Shown here: positions 52,240 to 55,268 of the stretch, one piece after another | Position numbering within the stretch: the first letter of the stretch is position 1 | Layout: each line of letters begins with the position of its first letter | Assembly (NCBI RefSeq): GCF_014207595.1 | Contig: NZ_JACHGY010000001.1 | Location: 1,940,909-2,004,908 of the forward strand | Length of the DNA stretch: 64,000 nucleotides | Source: Algisphaera agarilytica | GTDB taxonomy: Bacteria > Planctomycetota > Phycisphaerae > Phycisphaerales > Phycisphaeraceae | Reading direction: 5' to 3' | Translations under genes and position numbers: made by a program | The notes under the pieces: model-generated | What the model was told of the DNA's origin: nothing | Seen by the model: only the letters and a program-made list of their open reading frames with translations | Databases searched by the model: none

Positions 52240-53259
52240 TTACTGGGTTTCAACGCCCAGCTTGCCCAGCAGTTCGTCGAACTGATCGATGCTGTAGAAC
52301 TGGATGCTCAGCGTGCCGGCCCCCTTCTTCCGGGCGGTCTTGATCTGGACCTTGGTGCTCAGCTGCTCGCCGATCTGGCGTTCAAGGTCGTCGAGATACG
52401 CGGCACGGGCGGCCTTCTTCGCGGCGGGGGTGGGCTTTGTTTCACCTGCTGAAATCGCTTTGGCCTCAGCCTCGACCTGTCGAACGGTCAGCCCGTCCTT
52501 GATCGTTTTCTCCGCCAGGGCCAGTTGTTGGGCGGGATCCTCGACCCCAGCCAGGGCCCGCGATTGGCCCATGGACAGCAGCCCACGGACCACCATGTCC
52601 CGGACAGGGGGGGCGAGTTTCAGGAGCCGGAGCAGGTTGGTTACGGTTGACCGCTCCAGCCCCACACGCTCAGCGATCGCCTCGTGGTTCAGGCCGAACA
52701 CATCCCCCAGCCGCTGGAACGCCTCCGCCCTTTCGATGGGATTCAGGTCTTCCCGCTGCAGGTTCTCGATCAGGGCCCACTCGGCAACCTGCTTGTCATT
52801 CAAAGCCTTGACGAATGCGGGAATCGCTTCCAGCCCCGCCACTTGGGCTGCCCGCCAACGACGCTCCCCCGCCACCAATTCAAATTGATTCTCACCCGTC
52901 TTCCGCACCACGATCGGCTGAATCAACCCTTCCCGCCGGATCGACTCCGCCAACCGACCCAGAGCTTCTTCATCGAAATGCTGCCGGGGCTGAGACGCGT
53001 TCGGCGTTACCGAGTTTACGGCTATCCGTGAGTAGCCCCCGTCCACGATTGACGATTCATCCGCCTTGGGTTCAGCCACGGCCACCGCCCCTCCGCCGAC
53101 TGTCGCTGGTTCCGGGCTGGACTTCGCCTCCGTACCAGCCCCACCTTCCGGAGCACCCACCGGCACCGGAGTCGCCATCAAACTACTCAATCCCCGGCCA
53201 AGCCGAGAAGGGCGTTTCTTGGAGCCCGAACCCCCGCCGCTTTGTGACGCATCTGCCAT
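52240..53259 (-). CDS. parB: Chromosome partitioning protein ParB (CTPase)
   Basis: The 339-residue protein binds parS and spreads along DNA as a CTP-dependent clamp. It has the KRPSRLGRGLSSLM start typical of ParB, SRIAVNSVTPNASQPRQHFDE, the CTP-binding box GERRWRAA near residue 130, NEELQRxDL-like IENLQREDLNPIERAEAF, and the HTH GLNHEAIAERVGLERSTVTNLLRLL. A C-terminal dimerisation part follows. The ATG at 53259 is preceded by GGAGG with five bases spacing. Two perfect parS sites lie upstream. No parA gene is adjacent in the window. Confidence 0.95.
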   Translation of the reverse strand: MADASQSGGGSGSKKRPSRLGRGLSSLMATPVPVGAPEGGAGTEAKSSPEPATVGGGAVAVAEPKADESSIVDGGYSRIAVNSVTPNASQPRQHFDEEALGRLAESIRREGLIQPIVVRKTGENQFELVAGERRWRAAQVAGLEAIPAFVKALNDKQVAEWALIENLQREDLNPIERAEAFQRLGDVFGLNHEAIAERVGLERSTVTNLLRLLKLAPPVRDMVVRGLLSMGQSRALAGVEDPAQQLALAEKTIKDGLTVRQVEAEAKAISAGETKPTPAAKKAARAAYLDDLERQIGEQLSTKVQIKTARKKGAGTLSIQFYSIDQFDELLGKLGVETQ

Positions 53260-53329: not shown

Positions 53330-53345
53330 TGTTCCACGTGAAACA
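53330..53345. promoter_or_regulatory. parS site 1
   Basis: TGTTCCACGTGAAACA matches the 16-bp bacterial parS sequence exactly. It lies 70 bases upstream of the parB start. Confidence 0.95.
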
Positions 53346-53388: not shown

Positions 53389-53404
53389 TGTTCCACGTGA
53401 AACA
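53389..53404. promoter_or_regulatory. parS site 2
   Basis: A second exact TGTTCCACGTGAAACA lies 59 bases from the first, in the same orientation, next to a very AT-rich stretch (53405-53458). Confidence 0.95.
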
Positions 53405-53458
53405 TAAAAAGTTTAACATTGCAAAATATTGTTAAATATATAAATATAAAAATAATGC

Positions 53459-53594
53459 AAGTTCACGAACGTGCACGCGAACCTCTTGGAACAGCCAGCG
53501 TATTAACAATGACGTTGGGCCTCCTCCTCCCAATTGATCATGTTTTCTCCTCCACCCCGCCCGCTGGATAGGATCCAACGGGCGGGGTTTTTTA
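53459..53594 (+). ncRNA. Candidate small RNA with anti-Shine-Dalgarno motifs
   Basis: Downstream of parS 2, an AT-rich promoter-like stretch (TTGCAA at 53419, TTGTTA at 53429, several TATAAA/ATAATG options) leads into about 100 bases with no open frame. It has CCTCCTCCTCCC (53521-53532) and CTCCTCC (53548-53554), complementary to ribosome-binding sites, and ends in a strong terminator. No protein explains the terminator. The 5' end cannot be fixed by eye. Confidence 0.4.
53556..53594 (+). terminator. Strong Rho-independent terminator
   Basis: CCCCGCCCG (53556-53564) pairs with CGGGCGGGG (53580-53588), with TGGA/TCCA inside, and six T residues follow (53589-53594). No protein-coding gene ends upstream on this strand. 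Confidence 0.88.
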
Positions 53595-53969: not shown

Positions 53970-55067
53970 TTGAACCCCTCCACCCTTTCTTCCGATCAGT
54001 CCCCCAAGCCCCGAGCCAAAGCCAAGGCCCGCAACCGCGCCGCCGGCAGCACGCCCAATGTGGCCGCCGTCAAAACCTCGGCCACGCCGTTGCAGGTCGC
54101 CGCGTCATCCGCTCCCGACATGCGCCGGAGAAAGGCCGTGACCACGCCCGCCACTGAATCATCGAAGAAGCAGTCGCGTTTCGAGCCGCCGGTCACCGCG
54201 TTCCTCGCCTACATCCGCATCGAGTGCGGCTTCTCGCCCGCCACCCTCGCCGCCTACGGCGGTGACCTGCGCGACCTCTGGGTGTGGATGGTCAAGCAGA
54301 AACAACACAGCTGGAATGACCTGACCCCCGAACGGATTGCCGAGCACCTCAAGTCGCTCGAAGCCAAGGGCCACGCGGTCTCCACCATCGCGCGTCACGT
54401 CGCGACGATCCGCGTGTTCTGCCGTTTCCTCAAAGCCAACGAACACACCGACGCCGACCCTGCCGAGCAGCTAACACAGCCGCAGACCTGGTCGCGCCTG
54501 CCCACCGTGCTCGGCGACGAACAGATCGAGAAGCTGCTCTCGGCCCCCGACCCCGATGCGCTTCTTTATCTGCGCGACGTGGCGTTGATGGAGATGCTCT
54601 ACGCCGGCGGACTCCGCGCCAGCGAGATCGCCGACCTGTTGACCACCGGCATCCACTACGACTTGGGTGTGATCCGCGTGATGGGCAAGGGATCGAAAGA
54701 ACGTGTGGTCCCGCTCGGTCAGCCGGCACTCAAGGCGCTGCGCCGTTATACCGACGAGCTGCGCGAAGACCTGGTCCGCGAGAACGCGCCGACCGATCGC
54801 GTGTTCCTTTCGCGCACCGGCCAACCCATCACCCGCATCGTCGTTTGGCAGATCGTCAAGCGTCACGCCGAGAAGGCGGGCTTGTCGCACGTCCACCCGC
54901 ACACGCTGCGTCACTCGTTCGCAACGCACCTGCTCGCCGGCGGGGCGGACCTGCGTGTGGTGCAGGAACTACTCGGCCACTCCAACATTAAGACGACGCA
55001 GATCTACACCCACGTCGATCGCTCGCGCTTGAAAGAAGTGCTGACCAAGTTCCATCCCCGGCCGTGA
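53970..55067 (+). CDS. Tyrosine recombinase, XerC/XerD family
   Basis: The 365-residue protein resolves chromosome dimers. The catalytic residues are present: Arg216 (GGLRASE), Lys240 (GKGSKER), His311 and Arg314 (HTLRHSFATHLL), His337 (LLGHSN) and Tyr346 (TQIYTHV). The SAM-like N-terminal domain starts FEPPVTAFLAYIRIECGFSP. It is preceded by a ~60-residue basic, low-complexity extension not present in usual XerC/D (about 300 residues). The TTG at 53970 has GGAG ten bases upstream; an ATG at 54120 gives a protein of 315 residues and may be the true start. XerC or XerD cannot be distinguished by eye. Confidence 0.92.
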   Translation: MNPSTLSSDQSPKPRAKAKARNRAAGSTPNVAAVKTSATPLQVAASSAPDMRRRKAVTTPATESSKKQSRFEPPVTAFLAYIRIECGFSPATLAAYGGDLRDLWVWMVKQKQHSWNDLTPERIAEHLKSLEAKGHAVSTIARHVATIRVFCRFLKANEHTDADPAEQLTQPQTWSRLPTVLGDEQIEKLLSAPDPDALLYLRDVALMEMLYAGGLRASEIADLLTTGIHYDLGVIRVMGKGSKERVVPLGQPALKALRRYTDELREDLVRENAPTDRVFLSRTGQPITRIVVWQIVKRHAEKAGLSHVHPHTLRHSFATHLLAGGADLRVVQELLGHSNIKTTQIYTHVDRSRLKEVLTKFHPRP

Positions 55068-55093: not shown

Positions 55094-55123
55094 AAAGCCC
55101 GGGAGTAGCCACCCCCGGGCTTT
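55094..55123 (+). terminator. Rho-independent terminator after xerC/D
   Basis: AAAGCCCGGG (55094-55103) and CCCGGGCTTT (55114-55123) form a 10-bp stem with a 10-base loop, shortly after the stop at 55067. Its T run is short. Confidence 0.7.
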
Positions 55124-55147
55124 ACTGTGCGCTGAAGGTTTTGGCTT

Positions 55148-55268
55148 GCCCCCTCTCCCTCCGGGAGAGGGCCGGGGTGAGGGTGGGTTGAAGTTCTTGT
55201 GCGTTGGGTCTGGCACGGATTCATGGTGAGCGCCCTCACCCCAACCCTCTCCCGGGGGGAGAGGGGGC
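55148..55268. repeat. Paired inverted hairpins (REPIN-like)
   Basis: CCTCTCCC-tcc-GGGAGAGG (55152-55170), followed by GCCGGGGTGAGGG, and the reverse-oriented CCCTCTCCC-ggg-GGGAGAGGG (55245-55265), preceded by GCCCTCACCCC, form an inverted pair separated by about 75 bases. Confidence 0.8.

Follow-up and report, generated by a model that had tools for sequence, protein, structure and literature searches.

The 64,000-nucleotide stretch of the Algisphaera agarilytica genome that we analysed (hereafter, the window) contains a 710-bp intergenic region extending from the start codon of parB at position 53259 (52240-53259, minus strand; PF02195, PF17762 and PF23552) to a divergently oriented gene for an Xer-type recombinase (53970-55067, plus strand). 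Two perfect plus-strand matches to the parS sequence TGTTCCACGTGAAACA are found at 53330-53345 and 53389-53404 (2 vs 0.04 expected in the window), both outside the RNA described below, and the 14-base parS core occurs nowhere else in the 4.17-Mb genome, so that its two copies both lie upstream of parB. They are followed by a stretch that reads as AT-rich (about 53404-53458), in which a consensus scan places a weak plus-strand promoter-like site, TTGTTA-16-AATAAT (53429-53456), and by the predicted small RNA itself (53460-53593, plus strand; about 130 nt, with an uncertain 5' end), delimited by this AT-rich 5' flank, by a 3' terminator and by a 3' core that is conserved in relatives. Two C-rich anti-Shine-Dalgarno (anti-SD) motifs are present, as the original prediction had claimed: CCTCCTCCTCCC at 53520-53531 and TTTCTCCTCC at 53544-53553. 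The second is the conserved seed, recovered as a pattern in 20 family genomes and, without the exact pattern, in further syntenic copies; its CTCCTCC (53547-53553) abuts the stem of an intrinsic terminator, CCCCGCCCG...CGGGCGGGG with a six-T tail. This strong terminator indeed has no recognisable protein gene in front of it, and spans 53555-53593, one base off from the 53556-53594 initially given. None of the ORFs scanned between parB and the Xer gene (99, 50, 48 and 29 aa) has a Pfam match; those lying before or over the element are of 29, 50 and 48 aa.

The site beside two parS sequences had been pointed out as unusual. At 30 parB loci (L032-L061), the upstream sequence, examined over up to 1.5 kb, showed no ORF bearing a Walker motif of the ParA type. 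GC skew, computed on 20 sampled stretches, is negative up to 1.66 Mb and has become positive by 1.85 Mb, and the element, at 1.99 Mb, is 0.13-0.35 Mb from this change of sign; the presumed origin is thus not far, as expected of a parS locus. A replication origin within the AT-rich stretch was considered and rejected, as TTATNCACA is absent from the window and TTATCCACA with one mismatch is found 5 times vs 4.4 expected. The AT-rich tract reaches 90% A+T over 50 bases and adjoins parS upstream of parB; the same holds in G026 (L044), where the anti-SD element resides on a different contig from the parB-side tract. The tract may be part of the parB/parS locus instead of an RNA promoter. On the other side of the Xer gene, at 55120-55260, a C-rich/G-rich inverted repeat around 'CCCTCTCCCTCCGGGAGAGGG' could be seen by eye.

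In the window, CCTCCTCC alone occurs at chance frequency (4 seen vs 3.2 expected), as does the promoter-like site (1 found vs 1.0 expected), so that the window by itself proves no RNA gene; of the AT-rich, promoter-like stretch initially described, the AT-richness stands while the promoter does not exceed chance. The chance frequency of CCTCCTCC would suit a fortuitous pyrimidine run lying before an ordinary terminator, but we consider such a coincidence highly improbable, given that both position and sequence are kept over many genera. Moreover, in a scan of 464 kb of the same genome, CTCCTCC was found within 14 bases 5' of the stem at just 1 of 30 terminators, namely that of the window, a count on which we also rejected the possibility that pyrimidine runs are a generic feature preceding terminators. 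It is because of its position and its conservation in relatives that the candidate rises above chance.

A blastn search of the 171-nt region against its own genome and 60 relatives returned a single match below E 0.001 besides itself, and the first homologues came from the upstream regions of parB in relatives; in G015 and G005, TTTCTCCTCC abuts a terminator on the same side of parB. Fifty-one family genomes were then scanned with a pattern made of TTTCTCCTCC, 20-42 bases and TTTTT, which was present in 25 of them and gave 65 overlapping matches at 41 distinct places, vs 4 for the reversed control. A clearly related element, in which UUUCUCCUCC precedes a covarying terminator stem, was recognized in 20 of the 51 genomes, with the consensus UUUCUCCUCC-GCCAUGCCCC...GGGGCAUGG-UUUUU. 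The corresponding alignment (A1) comprises 20 rows picked by eye from the 25 pattern-matching genomes; it leaves out all matches of G001, G019, G022, G031 and G032, as well as others (e.g., G007 at 408 kb, G015:C40, and G036 at 3.6 Mb) whose stem is unlike the rest. As seed and T run are fixed by the search pattern, their invariance in A1 is no evidence; stem pairing lies outside the pattern, albeit in rows chosen by eye. In these rows, 93.5% of the cells of the ten-pair stem are paired, and 7 of the 10 pairs changed on both sides (as high in 1 of 500 shuffles), with a covariation score of 0.439 that none of 500 shuffles reached and that slid controls fell far below. Thus, when the conservation check proposed for the hairpin and the C-rich motif was run, terminator and second motif proved to be kept in 20 of 51 genomes, whereas the first, longer motif was not: by eye, CCTCCTCCTCCC occupies its place only in the genome of the window and is absent there in the 19 relatives.

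Among 24 copies of the element, 3 have no ATG or GTG frame of at least 15 codons starting within 110 nt 5' of the motif, the forward ORFs of the remaining 21 differ in start, end and frame, and no frame conserved through the element was seen on either strand. A minus-strand gene using GGAGGAG as its ribosome-binding site was not supported: 7 of the 24 copies lack an ATG, GTG or TTG 3-16 nt past GGAGGAG, and start and length vary among the others, although in G000, G010 and G025 an ATG does follow at a distance of 4-5 nt. Searches against Rfam 15 retrieved only two tRNAs and left the element unmatched, both in the window at the gathering score and in 17 motif-plus-terminator loci at E<=2. The core conservation of the element is well supported by the comparison of genomes, and we regard it as a real, apparently unlisted conserved RNA element of the anti-SD kind.

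A survey not selected on the motif was provided by mraZ, the first gene of the cell-division cluster. All 41 mraZ loci from the 51 family genomes were scanned with a covariance model of the element (R1), which found it downstream and on the same strand in 25 of them, 22 at E<0.001, including 11 copies outside the R1 training set; one further copy was recognized by eye in G068. At 2 of the 41 loci the contig ends too early, and at 13 with the full 1.5 kb downstream the element is missing from the R1 scan. R1 had no match at the parB loci of G018 and G023, two genomes without mraZ, and mraZ was not found in the genome of the window. Gene neighbours were examined for 24 copies, i.e., the 20 of A1 plus G006, G009, G010 and G012, which were selected among the 38 family genomes that R1 matches at E<=0.01 (G010 was chosen because parB is near). 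In 18 of these copies mraZ precedes the element by 0.36-0.92 kb on the same strand, in 10 parB is on the opposite strand within 6 kb, and altogether 23 adjoin mraZ, parB or both (5 have both); among these 23 are 5 that adjoin parB in a genome in which mraZ was not detected. The one copy with neither neighbour is in G025, a genome with a further copy 3' of its mraZ. G008, G010, G062, G063 and G064 display the order parB(-), histidine kinase(+), mraZ(+), element(+). G002 retains parB, kinase and element, G005 retains parB and element plus a weak kinase match 3.6 kb away, and in G000, G015 and G061 only parB and the element remain. This conserved neighbourhood argues for common descent, with the element outliving its neighbours. 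It also shows what is to be made of the parS sites: both are real, but they are neighbours of the element through parB, and the linkage itself is to the parB-mraZ neighbourhood, most copies being 3' of mraZ. The downstream genes bear on the idea that the element is a cis-acting attenuator or leader of the Xer-type recombinase gene, which is the next gene on the same strand, about 0.38 kb past the terminator; as the nearest downstream ORF differs among most genomes compared and is often on the opposite strand, this idea deserves very little credence.

The proximity of mraZ raises another possibility, that the element is merely the long 3' untranslated region (3'-UTR) or terminator of the upstream gene and no separate RNA. 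In addition to mraZ standing upstream on the same strand in three quarters of the copies examined, some other motif-plus-terminator matches seem, by eye, to lie close behind genes. In the window, however, the upstream gene parB is divergent; the five copies beside parB have no detected mraZ to which they could belong; and the 360-920 nt that separate mraZ from the element accommodate, in 28 of 41 mraZ loci, a second structured RNA (see below). Genome pairs point in the same direction: in nine of the 14 compared, a 48-81 nt block ending at the terminator is 86-98% identical, whereas directly 5' of it hardly any sequence, or none, can be aligned. Three other pairs (G062/G064, G015/G061 and G116/G208) align upstream too, and two (G008/G010 and G006/G009) fail to align at the element.

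Genus g9 speaks partly for the 3'-UTR. All 6 of its species keep CCUCCUCC and the terminator; they were reached via mraZ synteny, none having matched the search pattern. Conservation in this genus extends upstream of the hairpins, being 0.75 in the upstream stretch vs 0.74 in the motif, the terminator and beyond. The frame opened by a common ATG is broken early in 2 of the 6 species. In the g9 alignment (A3), the hairpins as drawn hold in 91.9% of cells. Hairpin 1 has one both-sided change, while the two of hairpin 2 are artefactual, the MAFFT row of G010 being one column off (by eye, G010 has GAGCC/GGCUC in place of GAGUU/GACUC); with so few genuine both-sided changes, support for the g9 5' hairpins is modest. 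In the consensus fold, CCUCCUCC is paired with a conserved 5' GGUGGAUGG and the seed is hidden, so that in g9 the seed may be masked or switched, provided that the upstream part belongs to the transcript. The eight bases of GGTGGATG, with which A3 begins on the left (L307:885-1007 plus five other loci), are invariant in the six species; possibly they pair with the seed as an internal lock of the anti-SD motif, or are part of a promoter. The upstream conservation and the seed-hiding fold slightly lowered our confidence in a small RNA and slightly raised that in a 3'-UTR, which we nevertheless regard as rather unlikely. As a separate observation, in other family genomes (L185, L186, L171, L172 and L191) TTTCTCCTCC was noticed by eye before terminators at the ends of protein genes; these could possibly be sister RNAs derived from 3'-UTRs.

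The reading that we prefer is that of a stand-alone, trans-acting anti-SD small RNA of ~130 nt, which probably pairs with Shine-Dalgarno (SD) sequences through its second motif, free of Hfq. In this model, the small RNA gene would stand alone and be inherited vertically, RNA polymerase would start in the AT-rich stretch near 53460 and transcription would stop at the terminator near 53593, thereby yielding an RNA of about 130 nt composed of a variable 5' portion, followed by UUUCUCCUCC in single-stranded form and by a terminator hairpin rich in GC. Lying directly against the stem of this hairpin, the CUCCUCC seed would pair in trans with GGAGG-type SD sequences of some mRNAs and block ribosome binding with no need of Hfq. 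Transcription, start site, pairing, repression and targets are what we infer here from sequence; transcription as a discrete RNA appears likely, and repression of mRNAs through the seed is our best guess, somewhat better than an even chance. Of the small RNA with an anti-SD motif first proposed, conservation, stem covariation and synteny thus speak for the RNA and its second motif, the longer first motif having dropped out. Consistent with Hfq-free action, none of the 51 family genomes gave a match to Hfq (PF17209) at E<=0.001, in a search that was positive in 5 of 14 control genomes.

Structure predictions are in line with an exposed seed. Folding of the 135-nt RNA gave a z of -2.45 relative to shuffled sequences, 4 of 200 being equally good, an excess that we put down to the terminator. 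The minimum-energy fold contains a possible 5' hairpin, CCAGCGU...ACGUUGG (53495-53518, plus strand), which excludes an alternative predicted hairpin, UUGGG(CCUCCUCCU)CCCAA (53515-53533). The predicted mean unpaired probability is 0.71 for the first motif, and 0.82-0.88 across four assumed starts for the second. Over 24 genomes, the seed is predicted to be open with a mean unpaired probability of 0.78 (range 0.31-1.00), vs 0.65 after single-base shuffling of the 70 nt upstream; some members are low, the lowest being G011.

No target stands out. In the genome of the window, GGAGGAG is little enriched 3-9 nt before ATG (30 places vs 23 in the reversed control), and the full complement GGAGGAGAAA precedes no ATG except on the opposite strand of the element itself. 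Fifteen of the 30 places open a frame of at least 60 aa, and 4 of these are plausible genes by eye: a DUF7453-like protein (23.3 bits for the first 60 residues, under the Pfam cut-off of 26.2) and three that, on inspection, resemble a chain-length determinant, a membrane protein and a lipoprotein. The start of parB is preceded by GGAGG, a match of only 5 bp to the seed. This scarcity of targets bears on a further explanation, in which the pyrimidine motif of a conserved noncoding RNA is read by a protein, the RNA being a sponge or being itself stabilised; the candidate readers would be a KH, S1 or cold-shock domain protein, or an exonuclease. The little target enrichment would fit, as would the fact that UUUCUCCUCC, in most family copies, exceeds the length of an SD complement, and that complements of the whole motif before ATG are rare (37 places in 27 of 51 genomes). 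Yet g9 has lost the U run while keeping its CCUCCUCC, and most of the copies fetched from family f3 read UUUCUCCCCUCC, the anti-SD part being what persists. Indeed the part that persists across the seed variants (mostly CUCCUCC in the family, but CCUCCUCC in g9 and, for the majority of the f3 copies fetched, CUCCCCUCC) is complementary to GGAGG, which favours SD pairing over a protein site needing the U run, and leaves the protein-read motif, together with its candidate readers, as an unlikely competitor to the anti-SD small RNA.

Beyond the family, R1 matched 100 of 251 genomes of the order at E<=0.01, many of these matches being weak and orthology partial, and 15 of 397 genomes of the class at E<=1e-5, all but one in the same order. 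Family f3 has its own form, consisting of CAUCUUUCUCCCCUCCGCC and a terminator; in 5 of the 9 contexts inspected it is followed by an aminotransferase-like ORF on the opposite strand. Within the genome of the window (G000), R1 gave eight matches up to E 10, the next-best real place being C1:356736-356791 (L342 near 3737; 26.4 bits, E 0.002). This copy-like element carries CUUUCUCCCCUCC / CTTTCTCCCCTCCGCCCCG abutting a terminator and lies 0.2 kb after an ORF resembling a sugar kinase.

The second structured RNA, of about 160-180 nt, was identified between mraZ and the place of the element through its core, TCAGTGATC, in 28 of 41 mraZ loci; it is closed by the helix CAGCGAAGG/CCUUCGCUG. Examples are L301:1120-1298 (-) and L322:2097-2270 (+), in addition to 26 more family loci. 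In alignment A2, which holds 27 of the 28 core-bearing loci (L321 was dropped for its insertion), 95.8% of cells pair and both-sided changes affect 9 of the 15 pairs, a number that 0 of 500 shuffles equalled. An Rfam search of 12 loci at E<=10 yielded one tRNA and three weak matches elsewhere, with no match to the RNA, and no exact copy of the core was seen up to 6 kb away from the element of the window. Two of its hairpins, one on a strongly covarying stem, bear ANGGAY hexaloops, much like the CsrA site, RUACARGGAUGU with GGA in a hairpin loop (PMC8668096). It is tempting, if doubtful, to view the whole as a translation-control RNA island ordered parB - histidine kinase - mraZ - GGA-hexaloop RNA (a possible CsrA sponge) - anti-SD RNA, with no detectable Hfq. 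Were this true, the two RNAs would act oppositely on the same GGA/Shine-Dalgarno sites, the translation of a small regulon would be tied to the cell-division locus, and the anti-SD RNA would have been retained alone in lineages like that of the window, where mraZ was not found. The neighbourhood of the anti-SD RNA offers a testable tie to segregation and division genes.

Among known systems, the element resembles SmelA075/SmelA099 and RS0680a of the 'cuckoo' family, with their C-rich anti-SD motif and several copies per genome; RS0680a is one of the CcsR RNAs. The alphaproteobacterial CCUCCUCCC RNAs had been named at the outset as an example of regulatory RNAs with such C-rich repeats. Several of their hairpin loops display the motif, and a block of the ribosome-binding sites of several mRNAs is their presumed action (PMC3927594); the first motif of the window can form a similar loop, UUGGG(CCUCCUCCU)CCCAA. 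One such loop can thus form in the window, at 53515-53533, where it competes with another hairpin, but the conserved motif is linear and directly 5' of the terminator stem, unlike the motif of the CCUCCUCCC RNAs, presented in loops and several times per RNA. An unpaired anti-SD motif, as in those RNAs, is predicted for the element, the g9 consensus fold being contrary. CcsR1-4 share a transcript with ccaF1, a DUF1127 gene (PMC10253847), and an interaction between CcsR and Hfq is reported (PMC8307010). The element differs in that no Hfq was found in its family and no DUF1127 gene was found upstream: the small ORFs of the window have no Pfam match and parB is divergent, and in relatives the upstream gene is parB or mraZ, with no DUF1127 among the ORFs of at least 100 aa scanned. 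Since loop presentation, DUF1127 neighbour and Hfq are all wanting, we did not file the element under the CCUCCUCCC RNAs; that it acts like them holds on paper, by analogy. A search of the open-licence literature found no such RNA for planctomycetes, whose small RNAs seem little described. If the anti-SD reading is right, a conserved RNA of this kind without detected Hfq would provide a natural system in which to ask how short seeds find their targets chaperone-free, and would resemble a separate, independent instance of the CCUCCUCCC strategy of alphaproteobacteria.

Other comparisons concern seed and location. RNAIII, CyaR and AbcR1 are small RNAs with anti-SD stretches in loops (PMC3927594); like them, the element would, as proposed here, use such a stretch as its seed for translation inhibition, although their seeds are in loops and their hosts are others, the comparison being one of descriptions. 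With UpsM, which is abundant, it shares the tie of an RNA to the cell-division gene cluster; UpsM is cut from a 5' leader, whereas the element lies 3' of mraZ or beside parB and has its own terminator.
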